Source: Massilibacteroides vaginae (lineage in GTDB: Bacteria > Bacteroidota > Bacteroidia > Bacteroidales > Tannerellaceae). Taken from it: 64,000 nt of DNA. Each line of letters opens with the position of its first letter. The stretch's first letter is position 1. The notes beneath the pieces are model-generated. The model searched no databases and was not told the DNA's origin. It saw only the letters and a program-made list of their open reading frames with translations. The stretch is from contig NZ_FXDJ01000008.1 in assembly GCF_900178525.1 (NCBI RefSeq), positions 501,001-565,000 on the forward strand. The letters run 5' to 3'. A program made the position numbers and the translations under genes. This document shows positions 9,396-48,564 of the stretch, piece by piece.

Positions 9396-9427
9396 AATTG
9401 TAGGTTTAAGCTACTAAATATATGATA

Positions 9428-9464
9428 ATATTCACCGGCCTTTATAAAAAAAACCGGTGAATAT
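9428..9464 (-). other. Hairpin between susD and the DUF3472 gene
   Basis: ATATTCACCGG (9428-9438) pairs perfectly with CCGGTGAATAT (9454-9464) around an A/T-rich 15-base loop. On the minus strand no clear T run follows, so it is more likely an mRNA processing or stability element that lets susCD be expressed above the downstream genes than a full terminator. Confidence 0.55.
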
Positions 9465-9477
9465 ATTAATTAAGAAC

Positions 9478-11199
9478 TTAGTTTGATGTCGGATTTTGTG
9501 TCAAAGTTCCCGGATATGAATTTATCGCATTTTGAGGAATAAAATAAACCGTTCTGAAATCAGTCGGTTTAACTTCTTCCATCGCATTATGCGGTCCCGG
9601 ATATTGACGTGTAAGTGAACGTCCGTTACGGTAAACATCATAACTACGTTCTGCCTGAAATGCCAATTCCAACGTTCTCTCCTTTTCTATTCTTTCTTCC
9701 GCATTAGTAGCATCAAGAGAAGTATATCCTTTACCAGGCAGTGAACGTTCACGAATAATATTCAATGCAGTTAACGCTGAACCATAATCACCTATTTTAG
9801 CAGCTGCTTCCGCTTTATTAAGATACATTTCAGCCAGACGGGTGATTACAGGTGAGTGCAACTGAGACTCTTCACCTTCACGCGCACATTTTACAACATA
9901 GAACATAGGATAAACACGATTTAGTCTGATAAATTGATCTATATATCCCGTGTATGTCTTTCCATCTTTATATTTAATAGAATAAATTCCTTGTTCCGCA
10001 TCAATCGGTGTTAATATATATGTGTCAGATTTATCACCGTCTTTTTCGATACAACTAACTTTGTCTCCTTCTATTTTTAAAGTTGCTTGAACATAATTAA
10101 AGTTAGTATGAACGCCTTCTTTATTCTTCACATCTTTAATAAAACGAAAAACAAGTGAATCTTTTTTCTCATACTGTGGTTCAATAAATGCTGCACGTGC
10201 ATCTACAATTTTGTTCTTACGCCAGTCGTTACGGCTGGTTTCATCTAATAGAGCTATATATTTTGCACTTGCATACATCTCTCCCCAACCCATACCTCCA
10301 ATATTGGAATACATACCCGGGAAATCATAATAGTGATCATTACCGGAATATTCAGAAGCAACACGTTTTACAACAAAAATTGACTCTTTGTTGTTTTCCG
10401 GTTTGTATGTGTTATACTTCATGAAATCCTCGCGATTTAACAAAGAATATTTTCCTGAATTTATCACTTTATCAGCATATTCAACTGATAGACGAGCATA
10501 TTCTGCATTAGGATTATCCCAAGTACCACTCATATAAAGATATATACGTGACAACAAAGCCCAAGAAGCCTCTTTACTGGCATAAGCCGGACCGGAATTT
10601 ATCGTCAACATTTCGGCTGCTTTATTTAAGTCATTAATGGCTTGTTCATAAGATGCTTTTACTGTTGCCCTATCAGAGAATGACATATTTAAAACATCAT
10701 CCGGAGTCCCATTTACGATAGGTACTCCTAAATTCTTTTCAGATTCCTGATAGTAAGGACGTCCATAGGCTCTTGTCAGATAAAAATACAACATACCACG
10801 AATGAAATAACATTCACCTAATTGATTGTCAATTTTCTCATTCTGCCCTTCTTCAATCATTTTAACAACGTTAGAAGTTTGGGCTATAGCCTTGTAACTA
10901 TAATCCCAAAAATTTTGCAAACGATAATTGTTAGGAGTGCGAGAGTAAGAGATGAACTCATAAAAAGCATCTGTAGATGACCCTCTAATCATGATATTGT
11001 CTCCGGCATATTCTCCACAACGATGCATTACATCAGCCCATCTCTTCATCTGTGCATAACTTCCGCTCAACATTCCGTCAAGAAATACATCCGGATCTGC
11101 AACTACCTCTTCTGCTAGTAGATGGTTTTGTGGTAGTTTTTCTATATCGCAAGCGGTAAACAAACAACCTACCGCAGCTATTATTGCTAATTTTTTCAT
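9478..11199 (-). CDS. SusD/RagB family outer-membrane nutrient-binding lipoprotein
   Basis: The 573-aa lipoprotein (lipobox CLFTAC, Cys17) is the surface lid that partners the SusC-type transporter. The N-terminal half has tetratricopeptide-like helices (YFIRGMLYFYLTRAYGRPYY, ASKEASWALLSRIYLYMSGTW) and the C-terminus has the RagB/SusD signature (RLAEMYLNKAEAAAKIG, LELAFQAERSYDVYRNGRSL). It starts 9 bp after susC ends and is clearly co-transcribed with it. It delivers glycan fragments to SusC; the exact ligand is not visible. Confidence 0.93.
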   Translation of the reverse strand: MKKLAIIAAVGCLFTACDIEKLPQNHLLAEEVVADPDVFLDGMLSGSYAQMKRWADVMHRCGEYAGDNIMIRGSSTDAFYEFISYSRTPNNYRLQNFWDYSYKAIAQTSNVVKMIEEGQNEKIDNQLGECYFIRGMLYFYLTRAYGRPYYQESEKNLGVPIVNGTPDDVLNMSFSDRATVKASYEQAINDLNKAAEMLTINSGPAYASKEASWALLSRIYLYMSGTWDNPNAEYARLSVEYADKVINSGKYSLLNREDFMKYNTYKPENNKESIFVVKRVASEYSGNDHYYDFPGMYSNIGGMGWGEMYASAKYIALLDETSRNDWRKNKIVDARAAFIEPQYEKKDSLVFRFIKDVKNKEGVHTNFNYVQATLKIEGDKVSCIEKDGDKSDTYILTPIDAEQGIYSIKYKDGKTYTGYIDQFIRLNRVYPMFYVVKCAREGEESQLHSPVITRLAEMYLNKAEAAAKIGDYGSALTALNIIRERSLPGKGYTSLDATNAEERIEKERTLELAFQAERSYDVYRNGRSLTRQYPGPHNAMEEVKPTDFRTVYFIPQNAINSYPGTLTQNPTSN

Positions 11200-11208
11200 G
11201 TGTCGTTT

Positions 11209-14200
11209 TTATAATGTAAAGTTAATACCAAACATAAACTTACGCGTAATAGGATAATTATCAGCCTTAGATACTCCGGCTACAGATGCTGTTCCTTCTT
11301 TTGATGAATCACCATCCAATACTCTAACCGGAATTTCAGGATCTACACCTGAATAATTAGTGATAGTAAACAAGTTTTCTGCTGTAAACGATAGACGTAC
11401 ATTTTCAATTTTGAATTTTGGTAGCTTCAGATTATATCCAATAGAAAGACTACGAAGTTTCAAATAGTCACCATCTTCCAGAAAACGCGAAGAAACCTTA
11501 TTCGCATTTGAAGAGTTGTTATATGATGCTTTTGGGTGGGTTGCAATATCTCCTGGTTTTTCCCATCTACTCCATCCACTCATTAATTTCATTTGATTAC
11601 GATCTGTATAAGTTCCATCCGAATCGTATTCCTGACGAGCATAATTATATATCCTTCCGCCTACTGAATAAGAAAACACAGCATTAAGATCAATCTGTTT
11701 CCATGCTAATGAAGTAGAGAATCCTCCATAATAGTCAGGGCTATATTTACCCAACATCACTTCGTCAGCTTTTGCGTAATCGCTTGTCAAAACACGGTTC
11801 CCATTGTTATCTGTAGTATACCATTGAGGTGCACCGTCTTCAGGATTAACTCCAGCCCATTCTCTTCCATAGAATGTATCGCTACTATAGCCTTCTTTAA
11901 GAATACGACTGATACTTCCAGCTGGTCCTCCGAAATTGGTACTGATGATTTCGGCTTTATCTCCTGCACCATTTTTGTAAAGTTTCTTAATCTTATTAGT
12001 ATTAAAACCTATATTAAAATCAGCACTCCAATACCAGTCATCCGTTTTGATAATATCAGCACCAACAGCTAATTCAAATCCTCTATTTTGAACTTCTCCA
12101 ATATTTTGCCAAACTTCCGTTACACCAGAAATACCTGATACCGGTACAGCAAATAACACATTGCTTGTGTTTTTGTTATATAAATCAGCATTAACTCGAA
12201 AACGATTCAGAAAACTAAAATCCACTCCAACACCTAATGTACTAGTCTCTTCCCATGTGAAATTATCATTACCAATTTGATTAATCAAAGCACCGGATGT
12301 TCCATTATAGCTCTGATCTACTGAATAAAGATTATATTGTGGGTACAACTTCGGAGGGGTGTTACCTACGGTTCCGTAAGCAACCCTCAACTTTAACATA
12401 TCAATCCAGTCTTTTTGCAGGAATTCTTCTCTGTGCAAATTCCATCCCCCGCTAATTGAAAAGAAATTTCCGTATTTTTTGCTGTTCCCGAAATTTGAAG
12501 CACCGTCTCTACGAAGAGAAAATTGTGCCAGGTATTTATTATCGTATGAATAATTTCCATCAAAGAAATATGACTGTATAGCCGATTCGTTAATATATCC
12601 AGCTGTTTTTTCCGGCTTAGCCGTCGCGTCTAAGACTTCAAAGCCCGGGATAAATCCTGTAGCAATCGCCTCAACTCTTTTAAATTTATAATCTCTATAT
12701 TCATAGGCAACCAAAGCAGTTACAGAGTGCTTGTCAAATGCTTTGTTAAATCTCAAAAGCTGATTGGTATAATTGCGTTCAGTTTTATTGTTTACCTCTC
12801 TTAAACGACCGTTCACACCTGAGCCATCGTTTGAGCGAGAATCAGTGTAAGCTTGATACGCATAGTTGTTCCAAGCAAAGTTGTTTACAGAAGAGAATGT
12901 TAAAAAACTTGTCAGACGAATATCAAAGTCAATATTTCCCGTAAATGCATAAGTTTCGCTTTTAGCTTTATTCCACTGCAAATCATACAAGTAGTTAGTC
13001 TTGTTACTATTTACCCAAGTAGAAGACTTGTGTGGAGTAGGTTTTCCATCTTCTAAGTAAGGACTATCCCAAGGAAGATTTACATACATTGCTGTTACCG
13101 AATACTGTCTATCATCAACATTGGCTCTTGAGCCCGCGATCTGAGGCTTAATTGTCAACCAATCTGAAGCCTTATATTCTGTACGATAACGGAAACTATA
13201 TTTCTTGTAATCGTATCCTTTTATAGCTCCTTCCTCATCATATAAACCTAAAGAAAAGTAAGATTTAACCTTTTCGGAACCACCAGATATAGAGATATTA
13301 TAATCCTGAGCCATACCTGTTTGAGTTGCCAAATCCCACCAGCTATAATTATTATTTCTTAAATTGTCGTTCCAACGAGGGAAAGAAATCATTTCCTGAT
13401 TAGAAAAAGATTTAAAGTAATCATACAACTCTGAACCATTCATAACTTGCATGTTCCCGTTATCCAAACTGTTCACTCCTAATTTAGCAGATACACTGAT
13501 GCGTACTTTATCTCCACTTGCACGTTTGGTTGTAACAACAACAACCCCGTTTGCTCCTTGAGAACCATAGATTGAAGTTGAAGCAGCATCTTTAAGGATA
13601 CTCATTGTCTCAATATCGTTTGGATTCAGAAAATCAGCCGAGGAATTACCTACAATTACTCCATCAATAACCCAAAGTGGATCTGTGTTTCCGTTAATTG
13701 AGGCTTTACCACGGATGATAATATTTCCTTTCTCTCCAGGACGCCCTCCACCAGGAGCGACAAATACTCCAGGAGCTTTACCCGACAACATATTATCTAC
13801 GTTAGCTGAAGTTACTGTTGTAATCTTCTCACTCTTCAGCGTTTGTAATGCGCCGGTGAGGCTTTCGCGTTTCTGAACGGTGTAGCCAACCACCACTACT
13901 TCTTCCAAGGCTTGTGTGTCTTCTTTCAGACGTATGGTTAGGTTGGTTCCGCTTGCGGGAACTTCCAGGTTCAGGTAGCCAATGTAAGAAACGACAAGGG
14001 TTGCGCCTGAGGGCACTTCCAGCGAGAAATTACCGTCAAAGTCGGTACTTGTTCCGTTTGAGGTTCCTTTAACAATAATATTTGCACCGATTACCGGTTC
14101 GCCGCTTACCGCGTCAACAACAACTCCTGTAATTTTTTGAGTTTGTTGTGAAATTGACGTAGAGAAATTGGCTGCATTAGTTGTGTTTTCTTTTCCAGCT

Positions 14201-43499: not shown

Positions 43500-44819
43500 T
43501 TAATAATTCTTTTTTTCGGTGGAAGTATTCTGTTTTTTTCCGGTCATAATTTCAAGTACCATTTTATCGGTCGTTTCCATTCCTATGGAACCTATCCGCG
43601 TAAGGTTGCTGATTGTATTGTCTACATCCTCGTCAATAATACCTTCAATATCGGTCACCACTTTATTTTCCATAGCCATCAACGCGGAAAGCATAGCCGT
43701 GGAAACACCGCTGGAAACTTTCATCGCGCAACTTGGCTTGGCTCCATCGCAGATCATTCCGGTCAGGTTGCCGATCATATTCTTTACCGCGTATGAAACC
43801 TGCTCCCTGTTTCCACCCATCAGGTATGTTATTCCACAACTTGCTCCGGTAGCAGCAACTACACAACCGCACAAGGCAGACAAACGGCCAAGACTCTGTT
43901 TTATATAAACAACCATCAAATGACTTAACATCAACGAGCGGATCAATTGTTCCTCTGTGCATTGCACATCTTCGGCAAAAGACAAAACAGGTAGCGTAGC
44001 CGCGATTCCCTGATTTCCACTGCCCGAATTGCTCATTACCGGAACCATCGCTCCATCCATACGCACATCACAAGCCGAGGAAGTCATTGCCAACATACGG
44101 GTCAGCGAAGTATCTCCCATGTATTTTTTACCATACGTTCCGGTTACGATCCGGCCCACCGAGTGACCATATTCATGCTTTGATGCTTCTTCAGCCGCTT
44201 TCTTATTCAGCCGGGCAGCATCCAGAATAAAACGAATATCTTCCAAAGGCACAGTCATCGCGAACTCATATACCGTTGCAAATGAAAGGCGAAAATCAGT
44301 CTCTTCCCCATTTTCATCCGGTTTGCAAACAGCAGAAGTAGAATCCAGCAAGACCACGCCCTCCTTTTCCAGGTAAACAAATTGCGTATGTCCATGCGAA
44401 ATAATCGCCTTTGCGCTGACTGATTTATTTGAACATACAACTTCGATATAAAGCTTGTCTACATTTTCTTTCAGCGAAACAAAAATCATCTTATCAGCTA
44501 TCATTTTACGCCCTTCCTCCACCGCTTCCGGTGTCAGATCACGCAATACCTCCAGTCCATAAGCCGATTTTCCAATCAATGCACCTAAAGCAATAGCAAT
44601 AGGCAGCCCCACCATTCCGGTTCCGGGAATTCCCACTCCCATGGCATTTTTCAGCACATTCGCACTAAGAAAAACGTCAATCCGATCCGGTTTAGCTTCC
44701 AACAACTCAGTAGCCCTGGCAGAAGCCAAAGCAACAGCAACCGGCTCGGTGCAACCGATAGCCGGAACAACTTCTTTTTTAAGTAATCTGATAATCTGAT
44801 TGATCGTGTTTCTTTCCAT
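43500..44819 (-). CDS. UPF0597/L-serine dehydratase alpha-like protein, probable L-cysteine desulfidase
   Basis: The 439-aa protein matches the UPF0597 (YhaM/CyuA) family, [4Fe-4S] enzymes that break L-cysteine to pyruvate, ammonia and sulfide. Conserved cysteines are in PAIGCTEPVAVALASA (about residue 23), CDGAKPSCAMKVSSG and CGCVVAATGASCGITYLMGG. MSNSGSGNQGIAATLPV is the other family block. The substrate could be another amino acid of the serine dehydratase group. It heads a run with the M24 peptidase and the phosphatase and has its own promoter. Confidence 0.85.
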   Translation of the reverse strand: MERNTINQIIRLLKKEVVPAIGCTEPVAVALASARATELLEAKPDRIDVFLSANVLKNAMGVGIPGTGMVGLPIAIALGALIGKSAYGLEVLRDLTPEAVEEGRKMIADKMIFVSLKENVDKLYIEVVCSNKSVSAKAIISHGHTQFVYLEKEGVVLLDSTSAVCKPDENGEETDFRLSFATVYEFAMTVPLEDIRFILDAARLNKKAAEEASKHEYGHSVGRIVTGTYGKKYMGDTSLTRMLAMTSSACDVRMDGAMVPVMSNSGSGNQGIAATLPVLSFAEDVQCTEEQLIRSLMLSHLMVVYIKQSLGRLSALCGCVVAATGASCGITYLMGGNREQVSYAVKNMIGNLTGMICDGAKPSCAMKVSSGVSTAMLSALMAMENKVVTDIEGIIDEDVDNTISNLTRIGSIGMETTDKMVLEIMTGKKQNTSTEKKNY

Positions 44820-45059: not shown

Positions 45060-46217
45060 ATGATTATTGGAATTCCTAAAGAAATTATGCCCGGCGAAGC
45101 GCGCGTATCTGCAACACCGGAAACAGTCAAAAAGTTTATTGCAGATGGAGCAACAGTTTTAGTAGAAAAAAACGCAGGTGCCGGATCTTTCTATTTCGAT
45201 GAAGATTACATAAATTCCGGAGCTCAAATCATTGATTCGGCAAAAGAAGTTTTTGAAAAAGCCGATCTTATCTTAAAGGTAAAAGAGCCCTTGTTCAACA
45301 AAACGTATGACACCCATGAAGTAGACCTGATGCATAAAGGTCAGCATCTGATCACGTTTATACATCCGGCATCTCCGGTTAACCACCAAATGGTAAAAAA
45401 ACTGGCGGCAAACGGCATTACAAGCATGACCCTTGATGGTGTTCCCCGTATATCACGGGCGCAAACTATGGACGCGCTCACCTCTATGAGCACATGCGCG
45501 GGATACAAAGGTATTTTATTGGCCGCAAACGCGATGTCTAAATTTATGCCTCCTATGTTCACCGCGGTGGGTTCCATACCTCCGGCTAAAGTATTGGTTA
45601 TCGGTGTGGGCGTAGGCGGATTGCAGGCATTAGCTACCGCGAAACGACTCGGAGCGATCACGTATGCAACAGATATTCGTCCGGCGGCAATCGAACAAGC
45701 TCAAAGTTTGGGTGCAAAAATAGTGGATGCCGGAGTTCCTTCCGAATTAGCAATCGCTGAAGGTGGCTATGCAAAAAATTTACCGAAAGAATGGGTGGAG
45801 AAAGAGCGTGAAAAACTACGTGAAACGATCAAAGATATGGACATTGTTTTCTGCAGTGCTTTAGTGCCGGGCAAAGTGGCCCCTATACTTATAACGGAAG
45901 ACATGGTAAAGGAAATGAAAAACGGTTCGGTTATCGTTGACATATCCGTTGATCAGGGCGGCAACTGCGACATAACTCCGGCAGGAACAACCGAAGTAAA
46001 ACACGGCGTTACAATAATAGGTATTAAAAACATTCCGGGAATGCTCCCCAGCAGCTCAACATGGATGTTCTCTAATAATGTATACAACTTAGCGAAATAC
46101 CTGATCAAAGACGGTAAAATAAGTTTAGATACGACTGACGAAATAGTTAAATCCATATTGGTTACTATTGACGGTGAAATAGTGCATGCCGGAACACTGG
46201 AGGCTATGCAACAATAA
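45060..46217 (+). CDS. pntAA: NAD(P) transhydrogenase subunit alpha part 1 (domain I)
   Basis: The 385-aa soluble NAD(H)-binding domain I of the proton-pumping transhydrogenase has MIIGIPKEIMPGEARVSATP at the start, the Rossmann motif VLVIGVGVGGLQALATAKRLGA (about residues 180-201) and SVDQGGNCDIT. In this split form the membrane part of the alpha subunit is a separate gene (pntAB), as in Rhodospirillum. The enzyme exchanges hydride between NADH and NADPH driven by the proton gradient. Confidence 0.95.
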   Translation: MIIGIPKEIMPGEARVSATPETVKKFIADGATVLVEKNAGAGSFYFDEDYINSGAQIIDSAKEVFEKADLILKVKEPLFNKTYDTHEVDLMHKGQHLITFIHPASPVNHQMVKKLAANGITSMTLDGVPRISRAQTMDALTSMSTCAGYKGILLAANAMSKFMPPMFTAVGSIPPAKVLVIGVGVGGLQALATAKRLGAITYATDIRPAAIEQAQSLGAKIVDAGVPSELAIAEGGYAKNLPKEWVEKEREKLRETIKDMDIVFCSALVPGKVAPILITEDMVKEMKNGSVIVDISVDQGGNCDITPAGTTEVKHGVTIIGIKNIPGMLPSSSTWMFSNNVYNLAKYLIKDGKISLDTTDEIVKSILVTIDGEIVHAGTLEAMQQ

Positions 46218-46297: not shown

Positions 46298-46609
46298 ATG
46301 AATCCGATCTTTTTAATCCTGATTTTTATCGCATCCTCGATTGTAGGATACTTTATTATAAAAAATGTGCCCAGTCTATTGCATACTCCCTTGATGACAG
46401 GCATGAATGCTCTGGCCGGTATTTGTCTGTTAGGCGCTGTTGTAACTGTAGGTTACTCTTACCAAACAGAAGGAGCCGATATGCTTATCGGACAGGTTTT
46501 CGGTGGTATAGGCATAATTCTTGCCACAGTAAATGTCGTAGCCGGTTTTGCCGTTACACATCGAATGCTGAAAATGTTTAAACACAAAGATAACTCCGAC
46601 AAGAAATGA
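46298..46609 (+). CDS. pntAB: NAD(P) transhydrogenase subunit alpha part 2 (membrane part)
   Basis: The 103-aa membrane protein has three helices (LILIFIASSIVGYFII, ALAGICLLGAVVTVGYS, IGIILATVNVVAGFAVTHRML). It supplies the alpha-side membrane helices of domain II next to the proton channel. The ending VTHRMLKMF is typical. Its stop overlaps the pntB start in ATGA. Confidence 0.93.
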   Translation: MNPIFLILIFIASSIVGYFIIKNVPSLLHTPLMTGMNALAGICLLGAVVTVGYSYQTEGADMLIGQVFGGIGIILATVNVVAGFAVTHRMLKMFKHKDNSDKK

Positions 46610-48564
46610 CAGACACATTATATTATATCATTTGTGGCCTGCTCTCTCTGTTAGCCCTCGCCGGTATATCGATGATGAGCAAAGTTAAAACAGCCACCCG
46701 GGGAAATTTAATTCTTTCACTCTCTTTACTTGCCGGTTTTATAACCACGTTATTACACTACAAAATCGTAGAAGTCACTACCATTTATGTTTTCATCCTT
46801 GTGGGTTGTGTTATTGGTGCATACATTGCACGTAAGGTACAGATGATGCAGATGCCACAAACCGTTGCCATGCTTAATGGTCTTGGCGGACTTGCGGGAG
46901 CGATTGTAGGCGGACTTACTTATATTGGCATTGGTGTTGATGAAGTGATAAAGTACCCTTTGTTTGTAAACGTAACTGCTGTAGTTGCAGTTATTGTGGG
47001 GATGGTAACTTTTGTAGGCAGTATGGTTGCAGCCGGAAAACTGCACCGTTTATTATCTCAAAAACCTGTTATATGGAAAAATCATGAAGCTATTCTGCTG
47101 CTTACCATTATTGGTTCTTTAACAGCCATTGCGCTGAGCTTCTTTACAGGCAGAGGCTTCGGGGTTTTAGCTGATCCTTACTTCATTCTTACACTTGCCA
47201 TACTCTCCGGTTCTTTATTCGGATTAGCCTTCTCCATCCGTGTAGGTGGAGCAGATATGCCGATTACAATTTCCTTGCTAACTTCTTTAGCCGGGGTTGC
47301 CGCTGCTATTGCCGGTCTGGCTATCGGCGATTTATTAGTTGTTTCTATCGGAGGTATCGTTGGCTCGTCCGGGTTAATTCTTACACAGATTATGTGTCGT
47401 GCCATGAACCGTAATTTAATGGTTATCCTGACCGGTAAAACATCGGTAGCAAGCGGTAATGTGGTGAAGGTTACCGGCGATTCGGCAGCAACGCCTCCTG
47501 AAGAGTCTAAACCGTGCGACTATAGTACCTTATTAAACAACGCCAAACGGGCAATTATTGTGCCCGGATATGGCATGGCGTTAGCACAAGCCCAGCACTT
47601 GGTAAGGCAATTGGCGGATAAACTCGAAGCACAGGGAACGGATGTAAAATACGCCATACACCCTGTTGCAGGACGTATGCCCGGACACATGAACGTATTA
47701 TTGGCAGAAGCCGATGTGCCCTACGACAAGCTATATGAAATGGACGCCGTGAACGATGACTTCAAGGATACGGATATTGTAATTGTGATCGGAGCAAACG
47801 ATGTGCTCAACCCGGCCGCCCGTGACGCTGTAGACACCCCGATTTACGGCATGCCGGTATTGAATGTAGATCAGGCAAAGCACATTATTATCTGCAACTA
47901 CGACTTAAGTCCCGGATACGCCGGAGTGCCTAATCCGCTTTACGAAATGAAGGATAAGGTAACCTTGCTGTTGGGCGACGCGAAAGAATCGCTCACTACA
48001 TTGATTTATAAAGATGAGCAGTCCGGTCTATCTACAGAAGAAGAAACAAATACGGACAGCCCGTTGAACGACACTGCCTCCCTGCTGAAAAACGCCAAAC
48101 GGGCAATTATTGTACCCGGATATGGTATGGCGTTAGCACAAGCTCAGCACTTGGTAAGGCAATTGGCGGATAAACTTGAAGCACAGGGAACGGATGTAAA
48201 ATACGCCATACACCCCGTTGCAGGACGTATGCCCGGACACATGAACGTATTATTGGCAGAAGCCGATGTGCCCTACGACAAGTTATACGAAATGGACGCC
48301 GTGAACGATGACTTCAAGGATACGGATATTGTAATTGTGATCGGAGCAAACGATGTGCTCAACCCGGCCGCCCGTGATGCTGTAGACACCCCAATATATG
48401 GTATGCCGGTATTGAATGTAGATCAGGCAAAACACATTATTATCTGCAACTACGACTTAAATCCCGGATACGCCGGAGTGCCTAATCCGCTTTACGAAAT
48501 GAAGGATAAGGTAACCTTACTGTTGGGCGACGCGAAAGAATCGCTCACTACATTGATTTCTTAG
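46606..48564 (+). CDS. pntB: NAD(P) transhydrogenase subunit beta with two tandem NADP-binding domains
   Basis: This 652-aa protein is far longer than the usual PntB of about 460 aa. Residues 1-285 are the standard membrane domain II (nine or so helices, MLNGLGGLAGAIVGGL). Two copies of the NADP(H)-binding domain III follow in frame: residues 312-467 and 496-651, joined by an acidic, Ser/Thr-rich 28-residue linker. Each has PGYGMALAQAQHLVRQLADK, HPVAGRMPGHMNVLLAEA, VIGANDVLNPAARD, GMPVLNVDQAK and GYAGVPNPLY. The two 469-bp DNA copies (47539-48007, 48091-48559) differ at about 15 bases, and only one changes a residue (Ser to Asn in NYDLSPGY). The frame is intact to the stop. Confidence 0.95.
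   Translation: MTDTLYYIICGLLSLLALAGISMMSKVKTATRGNLILSLSLLAGFITTLLHYKIVEVTTIYVFILVGCVIGAYIARKVQMMQMPQTVAMLNGLGGLAGAIVGGLTYIGIGVDEVIKYPLFVNVTAVVAVIVGMVTFVGSMVAAGKLHRLLSQKPVIWKNHEAILLLTIIGSLTAIALSFFTGRGFGVLADPYFILTLAILSGSLFGLAFSIRVGGADMPITISLLTSLAGVAAAIAGLAIGDLLVVSIGGIVGSSGLILTQIMCRAMNRNLMVILTGKTSVASGNVVKVTGDSAATPPEESKPCDYSTLLNNAKRAIIVPGYGMALAQAQHLVRQLADKLEAQGTDVKYAIHPVAGRMPGHMNVLLAEADVPYDKLYEMDAVNDDFKDTDIVIVIGANDVLNPAARDAVDTPIYGMPVLNVDQAKHIIICNYDLSPGYAGVPNPLYEMKDKVTLLLGDAKESLTTLIYKDEQSGLSTEEETNTDSPLNDTASLLKNAKRAIIVPGYGMALAQAQHLVRQLADKLEAQGTDVKYAIHPVAGRMPGHMNVLLAEADVPYDKLYEMDAVNDDFKDTDIVIVIGANDVLNPAARDAVDTPIYGMPVLNVDQAKHIIICNYDLNPGYAGVPNPLYEMKDKVTLLLGDAKESLTTLIS
47539..48007 (+). repeat. Domain III repeat, copy 1 (within pntB)
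   Basis: A 469-bp direct repeat encoding one complete NADP-binding domain. Period to copy 2 is 552 bp, exactly 184 codons, so the frame is preserved. Confidence 0.95.
48091..48559 (+). repeat. Domain III repeat, copy 2 (within pntB)
   Basis: It is about 97% identical to copy 1. The differences I counted are nearly all at third codon positions, which argues that both copies stayed under selection for protein sequence, or that gene conversion is acting. Confidence 0.95.

Follow-up and report, generated by a model that had tools for sequence, protein, structure and literature searches.

Tandem domain III copies in a transhydrogenase-like PntB of Massilibacteroides vaginae: candidate beta subunit of a membrane-coupled amino-acid dehydrogenase

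Introduction

The closest described relative of the system reported here is the PntAB/NNT transhydrogenase, in which domain I (dI), membrane domain II (dII) and domain III (dIII) are arranged in that order, with one dIII per beta subunit. In the accessible part of PMC5742237, this three-domain architecture is called universally conserved, a single dIII in every protomer is taken as the universal state, the two dIIIs are described as moving alternately between dI and dII, and the dII-dIII linker of known enzymes is given as 14-19 residues. K424-R425-S426 is named the KRS motif of the NADPH site in the accessible part of PMC9529548; the accessible part of PMC5026163 contains no information on the nucleotide site. 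The present work concerns the pnt operon within a window of 64,000 nucleotides from Massilibacteroides vaginae contig NZ_FXDJ01000008.1 (GCF_900178525.1), in whose numbering coordinates are given. Its pntB gene encodes one dII followed by two dIII copies, and relatives carry up to four. Two further differences from PntAB/NNT are the sequence N-x-D in place of KRS and a dI that has K75, H96 and D270.

The second point of comparison is L-alanine dehydrogenase (Ald, TIGR00518), for which the accessible parts of PMC10401832 and PMC4691113 describe R15, K75, H96 and D270 as pyruvate-binding or catalytic. Ald is needed to remake pyruvate in the Tpa-Ald-Xsc route of taurine respiration, according to the accessible parts of PMC10507020 and PMC8667426. 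A literature search, with most subscription journals outside its reach, found no PntB with several dIII (the accessible parts of PMC7614955, PMC5742237, PMC9529548 and PMC5026163 included), in keeping with an earlier sequence-only reading of this DNA that knew of no described PntB of this design. A phrase search with the same limit on subscription journals found no proton-translocating, proton-pumping or membrane-bound alanine dehydrogenase.

Results

Two domain III copies in the window pntB

The operon runs pntAA, pntAB, pntB in one direction on the + strand, and Pfam assigns to it the dI-dII-dIII arrangement and alpha1-alpha2-beta organisation of PntAB transhydrogenase. The pntB start overlaps the alpha2 gene (pntAB) by 4 bp. 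The features are as follows.

45060..46217, +: pntAA (alpha1, dI), 385 amino acids; Pfam AlaDh_PNT_N and AlaDh_PNT_C, structure model, fold match
45102..45104, +: R15 codon, equivalent to alanine dehydrogenase R15; alignment with alanine dehydrogenases
45282..45284, +: K75 codon, equivalent to alanine dehydrogenase K75; alignment, K in 56/56 lineage and 0/25 canonical rows
45363..45365, +: H102 codon, equivalent to alanine dehydrogenase H96; alignment, H in 56/56 lineage and 0/25 canonical rows
45951..45953, +: D298 codon, equivalent to alanine dehydrogenase D270; alignment, D in 56/56 lineage and 0/25 canonical rows
46298..46609, +: pntAB (alpha2, part of dII), 103 amino acids; Pfam PNTB_4TM
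46606..48564, +: pntB, one dII and two dIII, 652 amino acids, ATG start; open reading frame, Pfam
46606..47445, +: membrane domain II, approximately residues 1-280, with D213 and R265 equivalents retained; alignment
47446..47538, +: dII-dIII linker
47539..48006, +: dIII copy 1, residues 312-467; direct repeat, alignment
47896..47904, +: N431-Y432-D433 replacing the KRS motif, dIII copy 1; alignment
48007..48090, +: linker joining the two dIII copies
48091..48558, +: dIII copy 2, residues 496-651; direct repeat, alignment
48448..48456, +: N615-Y616-D617 replacing the KRS motif, dIII copy 2; alignment

Window PntB matches Pfam PNTB with 778 bits in two stretches. The open reading frame, the repeat and the Pfam matches thus bear out the claim of the sequence-only reading that two full dIII copies follow one membrane domain. 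A single direct-repeat family with 552-bp spacing and 97% identity was found in the gene. The copies differ at 15/468 bases, 14 of them silent and one a replacement (S435 vs N619), and the earlier count of about 15 base differences with one amino-acid change was right. The dS and dN values of 0.147 and 0.0028 (NG86) give a dN/dS of about 0.02, and both copies keep the nucleotide-site motifs. Thus, the copies are selected or homogenised, as that reading had proposed, and the idea of a decaying second copy is rejected on the dN/dS value. The repeat is domain-exact: likeness ends at the dIII edges, and the flanks and the two linkers are unrelated. With a repeat both domain-exact and 97% identical, chance was rejected as its origin.

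The window genome, 3.71 Mb in 9 contigs, contains a second pnt operon on contig C3 (L331; C3, 59000-78000; pntB at 9425-11401). Its pntB also carries two dIII copies, distinct from the window pair and related to each other by 96.1% amino acid identity and a dS of 0.34. Silent sites are saturated between the dIII of the two loci, so the likeness within a pair is maintained separately at each locus. Short-read assemblies do break at near-identical repeats, as seen in G397, whose gene is divided between two contigs, and in G1017 and G1166, which hold N runs; an assembly artefact could in principle produce a doubling. The chance of this is negligible here: the window genome has two different doubled loci, the linkers of the window pntB are unrelated, and genes with several dIII lie on contigs of 3,464,070 bases (G712, three and four copies), 3,695,371 bases (G1241, four), 2,309,262 bases (G1234, two) and 2,186,370 bases (G462, three). 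Since the C3 locus is also doubled and the architecture recurs in other species, a local assembly error does not account for the repeat, nor is the repeat confined to this assembly. The two dIII copies in the window pntB are real.

Distribution among relatives

Genomes with at least two dIII in one PntB were counted against genomes with a PNTB match in samples of relatives that overlap and include the starting genomes. The window's family gave 5/9 (123 genomes searched), and a sample of its order 8/105 (393 searched), with the G397 gene split over two contigs. The family of the L016 genome (Desulfovibrio sp. MES5; hereafter the Desulfovibrio family) gave 8/14 (199 searched; the G586 gene runs off its contig) and the phylum of that genome 3/20 (247 searched). 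For the L017 genome (Oscillospiraceae bacterium), the order gave 1/9 (295 searched), the one being the starting genome, and the phylum, hereafter Bacillota, 13/35 (299 searched), with at least two copies visible in four more cut or gapped genes (G1155, G1256, G1166 and G1017). Examples among the 80 stretches kept, out of at least 589, from a GTDB scan by one peptide pattern are L016 with four copies, L017 with three and L018 (Desulfobacterales bacterium) with two. The search for homologues near 650 amino acids with two dIII, suggested by the sequence-only reading, is answered by frames of 648-1030 amino acids that carry two to four dIII.

Draft assemblies break or hold N runs inside the dIII repeats (L272 in G1166, L273 in G1017, L143/L144 in G397), and copy counts from short-read genomes are therefore probably underestimates. 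Inserted or programmed breaks were considered for the dIII of G1017 and G1166 and rejected, the breaks being assembly N runs. At L277 (G1068, a 1.6-Mb genome), pntB fragments are parted by in-frame stops (TGA, TAG), and the gene is likely a pseudogene.

An N-x-D lineage of domain III

Alignment of window dIII to E. coli dIII (2bru) places N-Y-D where E. coli reads K-R-S. Classed by the motif itself, 151 dIII copies comprise 28 KR[SG] and 123 N-x-D, one of the latter with its third residue unread. In a tree of membrane domains, which do not include the motif, the two types are split by one change with a support of 100. Several dIII copies are present in 36/59 N-x-D genes vs 1/26 KRS genes of the assembled set, which was chosen and not random. 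The one is G1472 (L274/L361), a canonical KRS-type PntB outside the N-x-D lineage whose two dIII copies are 87.6% identical.

We take the KRS motif to hold the 2'-phosphate of NADP(H). In other Rossmann enzymes, a D-like residue at the corresponding position is commonly associated with a preference for NAD(H) over NADP(H). The motif change suggests that N-x-D dIII may bind NAD(H) rather than NADP(H). Of the earlier description as tandem "NADP-binding" domains, the tandem therefore stands, and the NADP label is doubtful because the motif reads N-x-D in both copies. Window PntB scores 582.9 bits against the NCBIfam equivalog PRK09444, below its cut-off of 689. In dII of the N-x-D lineage, D213 is kept in 59/59 rows and R265 in 58/59; given this Asp-Arg pair, membrane coupling remains plausible.

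Alanine dehydrogenase residues in domain I

Alanine dehydrogenases of relatives, taken as proteins above the TIGR00518 cut-off, were aligned with dI. The N-x-D-type dI keeps R15, K75, H96 and D270 (R15, K75, H102 and D298 in the window) together with the NIPG stretch, whereas canonical dI keeps R15 and not the other three. The full tetrad is present in 53/53 N-x-D rows that reach the N terminus vs 0/25 canonical rows, and K75, H96 and D270 equivalents in 56/56 N-x-D rows. The doubling is the smaller departure from known enzymes; the larger one is membership of the entire enzyme in a lineage with alanine dehydrogenase residues retained in dI.

The dI model has a pLDDT of 87.3, and its best solved fold is R. 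rubrum transhydrogenase dI (1f8g, Z 45.6). Window alpha scores 381.6 against PRK09424 (cut-off 383) and 338.6 against TIGR00561 (cut-off 444.4), a weaker test because these models are for unsplit alpha. No support was found for a switch of dI to NADP: the second strand ends in an acidic residue that is D in 56/56 lineage and 25/25 canonical rows. In a dI tree rooted on alanine dehydrogenase, canonical dI branches within the N-x-D group, and N-x-D forms one side of the split in 0% of 200 bootstrap trees. When 25 columns round the tetrad were removed, a separate N-x-D clade was not rejected (p_AU 0.314). The N-x-D lineage may represent an intermediate state from which NADP-dependent transhydrogenase arose.

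Evolution of the domain III copies

Trees were built without the broken or gapped rows G1017, G1166, G692 and G1068. On the membrane-domain tree (85 domains), the state changes between single and multiple dIII at least 14 times. In the dIII tree, 21/36 multi-copy genes have their copies together in one clade. The other 15/36 include copies that cluster instead with the copy at the equivalent position in a relative (G024/G030, G310/G462, G511/G699/G712). Copies 1 and 2 of G310 are separated by a dS of 0.26, and copy 1 of G310 from copy 1 of G462 by 0.41; given that the G310 copies are closer to each other than to the G462 counterpart, homogenisation has taken place within the gene. Thus, homogenisation acts on the dIII copies of a gene, yet the copies persist from species to species. 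The G712 chromosome holds both a three-copy and a four-copy pntB with identical first 900 bases. The analysis supports recombination as a process that evens out dIII copies and alters their number; the proposal of the sequence-only reading that the extra copy could be lost in this way gains support from the state switches and the G712 pair. The linkers between dIII copies (n = 62) are hypervariable, with 24-59 residues (median 30) and 22.8% Ala vs 11.9% in dIII.

Gene context and presence of alanine dehydrogenase

The surroundings of 40 N-x-D loci (window included) were compared with those of 20 KRS loci (4 from the Desulfovibrio family). In that family, an alanine-related neighbour is present at 8/10 N-x-D loci. 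Close homologues (E <= 1e-199) of a single class III aminotransferase, taurine:pyruvate-aminotransferase-like, lie beside pnt at G712a, G653, G603, G662 and G578, and an alanine racemase with an amino-acid permease at G712b, G699 and G511; G524 and G586 have neither. In G712 (L317, L318), the three-dIII pntB stands in a taurine-type cluster and the four-dIII pntB behind the racemase and permease. The order at G712a is pnt, aminotransferase, regulator, sulfoacetaldehyde acetyltransferase (Xsc; TIGR03457, 779.4 vs a cut-off of 676.4) and ABC transporter. No such aminotransferase or alanine racemase was found at the 20 KRS loci. An alanine racemase above the TIGR00492 cut-off follows pntB in the deep-branching G1423. 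Over all loci, alanine racemase is near pnt at 4/40 N-x-D vs 0/20 KRS loci, which is not significant alone (Fisher p 0.29).

Alanine dehydrogenase was scored by TIGR00518. Among N-x-D genomes of the Desulfovibrio family, it is absent from 8/10, present in G524 and represented by a contig-end fragment in G578. All 4 KRS genomes of the family have it (Fisher p 0.015 vs N-x-D with the G578 fragment counted as present; completeness is not given for the genomes in this count, and G712 is one contig of 3.46 Mb). In Bacillota, 8/29 N-x-D genomes vs 12/18 genomes without pnt have the enzyme (p 0.015, with phylogeny and completeness uncontrolled); it is not rarer with multiple copies (2/14 multi-copy vs 6/15 one-copy genomes, p 0.21). 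The window genome has no alanine dehydrogenase above the cut-off. Genomic context is telling in the Desulfovibrio family only.

Several other neighbours were observed. A kynureninase-like gene (Pfam KYNU_C) lies two genes upstream of the second pnt locus of the window genome; kynureninase makes alanine. At L325 and L326 (G1182 and G1207), a nicotinamidase gene immediately precedes pntAA and an EamA-type transporter gene lies downstream, and an AsnC-type regulator is near pnt in G757. In the window, an SDH_alpha gene (serine dehydratase alpha / cysteine desulfidase type; 43503-44819, -) is divergent from pnt.

Discussion

We tentatively propose, at close to even odds, that the product of the window pntB is the beta subunit of an amino-acid dehydrogenase that is coupled to the membrane and uses a transhydrogenase scaffold, with the dIII repeats as mobile carriers. 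From the sequence comparisons and gene contexts above, we infer its substrate, nucleotide, coupling and carrier role as follows. At an alanine-dehydrogenase-type site, dI would exchange hydride between an amino or 2-oxo acid and bound NAD(H), the substrate being alanine, or pyruvate plus NH4+, in at least some members. The N-x-D dIII would take or give hydride and then swivel to dII, whose proton channel would tie the hydride step to the proton gradient. Two to four dIII on flexible linkers could alternate as carriers for one dI/dII, so that one stays at dI during the visit of another to dII. If NAD(H) occupies dI as well as dIII, ordinary transhydrogenation would have no net effect, a difficulty that a substrate site in dI would resolve: the reaction would then be driven by the difference between NADH and the amino-acid couple. 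Redox potentials make the oxidation of alanine by NAD+ an uphill reaction. An alanine dehydrogenase driven by the proton gradient is therefore reasonable; in the reverse direction, amination of pyruvate could conserve energy by charging the gradient. The wider proposal, that the N-x-D lineage of anaerobes is a proton-coupled alanine (amino-acid) dehydrogenase that is driven by proton motive force or pumps on pyruvate amination, with tandem NAD(H)-dIII as swinging carriers, is somewhat short of an even chance and is offered as a possibility.

The working principle has a parallel in the E2 component of pyruvate dehydrogenase, which has repeated lipoyl domains as carriers. Tandem, near-identical carrier domains and Ala-rich, variable linkers are common to both; the carrier is a lipoyl arm there and a non-covalent nucleotide site here, and no homology is claimed.

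The main rival is an ordinary NADP enzyme with unusual residues. Here, NADP(H) would be recognised via other residues, the conserved dI residues would serve nucleotide or domain contacts, and dIII number would reflect recombination with a mild benefit. This is possible but doubtful. It would account for the three-gene order and Pfam domains shared with known transhydrogenases, the retained dII coupling residues and a dI fold closest to transhydrogenase dI; the doubled KRS-type G1472 also fits, since it means that repeats do not require the N-x-D motif. It leaves without explanation that N-x-D replaces KRS in all 123 copies, that four alanine dehydrogenase residues are invariant in the lineage yet never occur together in canonical rows, and that in the Desulfovibrio family the operons include alanine-making or racemising enzymes while Ald is missing. 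Improbable as a further alternative is that catalysis is confined to the first or last dIII, with the remaining copies either neutral outcomes of unequal recombination or stores of bound nucleotide. The lability of copy number on the tree and the hypervariable linkers are consistent with such a reading, but all window copies keep their nucleotide-site motifs with a dN/dS of about 0.02, and positional counterparts persist between species (G024/G030, G511/G699/G712).

Several observations weigh against a coupled amino-acid dehydrogenase. The dI model resembles alanine dehydrogenase 2vhw (Z 39.1) next after transhydrogenase dI, and window dI reaches 182.4 bits against TIGR00518, below the cut-off of 391.85; the window system also differs from Ald in having separate membrane and dIII subunits. 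The likeness to Ald thus lies in the tetrad, the NIPG stretch, the shared fold and the gene neighbourhoods of the Desulfovibrio family. The NAD specificity proposed for dIII is deduced from three residues. The PntB structure model, with a pLDDT of 59.5, is too weak for a fold search or as structural support for the carrier geometry. One-copy members make up 23/59 N-x-D genes in the tree set, so the chemistry does not require dIII repeats. Among the Tpa-like genes scanned, that of G712a alone passes the generic aminotransferase cut-off (494.6 > 488; 470.8 for G653 and 474.0 for G578), and Xsc is found in the fetched flank of G712a only. Outside the Desulfovibrio family, 9/42 N-x-D genomes have alanine dehydrogenase, and G001 has one as well; the 1/20 for KRS genomes outside that family (plus fragments in G1215 and G924) says little as a comparison because most of these belong to the order of the window genome, where the enzyme is rare. 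The pnt neighbours in Bacteroidales and Bacillota are varied. The SDH_alpha neighbour of the window was dropped as a clue to pyruvate and ammonia: homologues are also near 4/20 canonical loci (G518, G560, G561 and G581), so it is not specific.

The natural two-, three- and four-dIII enzymes, including the G712 pair, provide ready-made tests of the swivelling-domain mechanism. If the N-x-D enzymes are coupled amino-acid dehydrogenases, current annotation would label them NAD(P) transhydrogenase, and by a route for which the literature search found no description they would tie amino-acid or taurine metabolism to the proton gradient.

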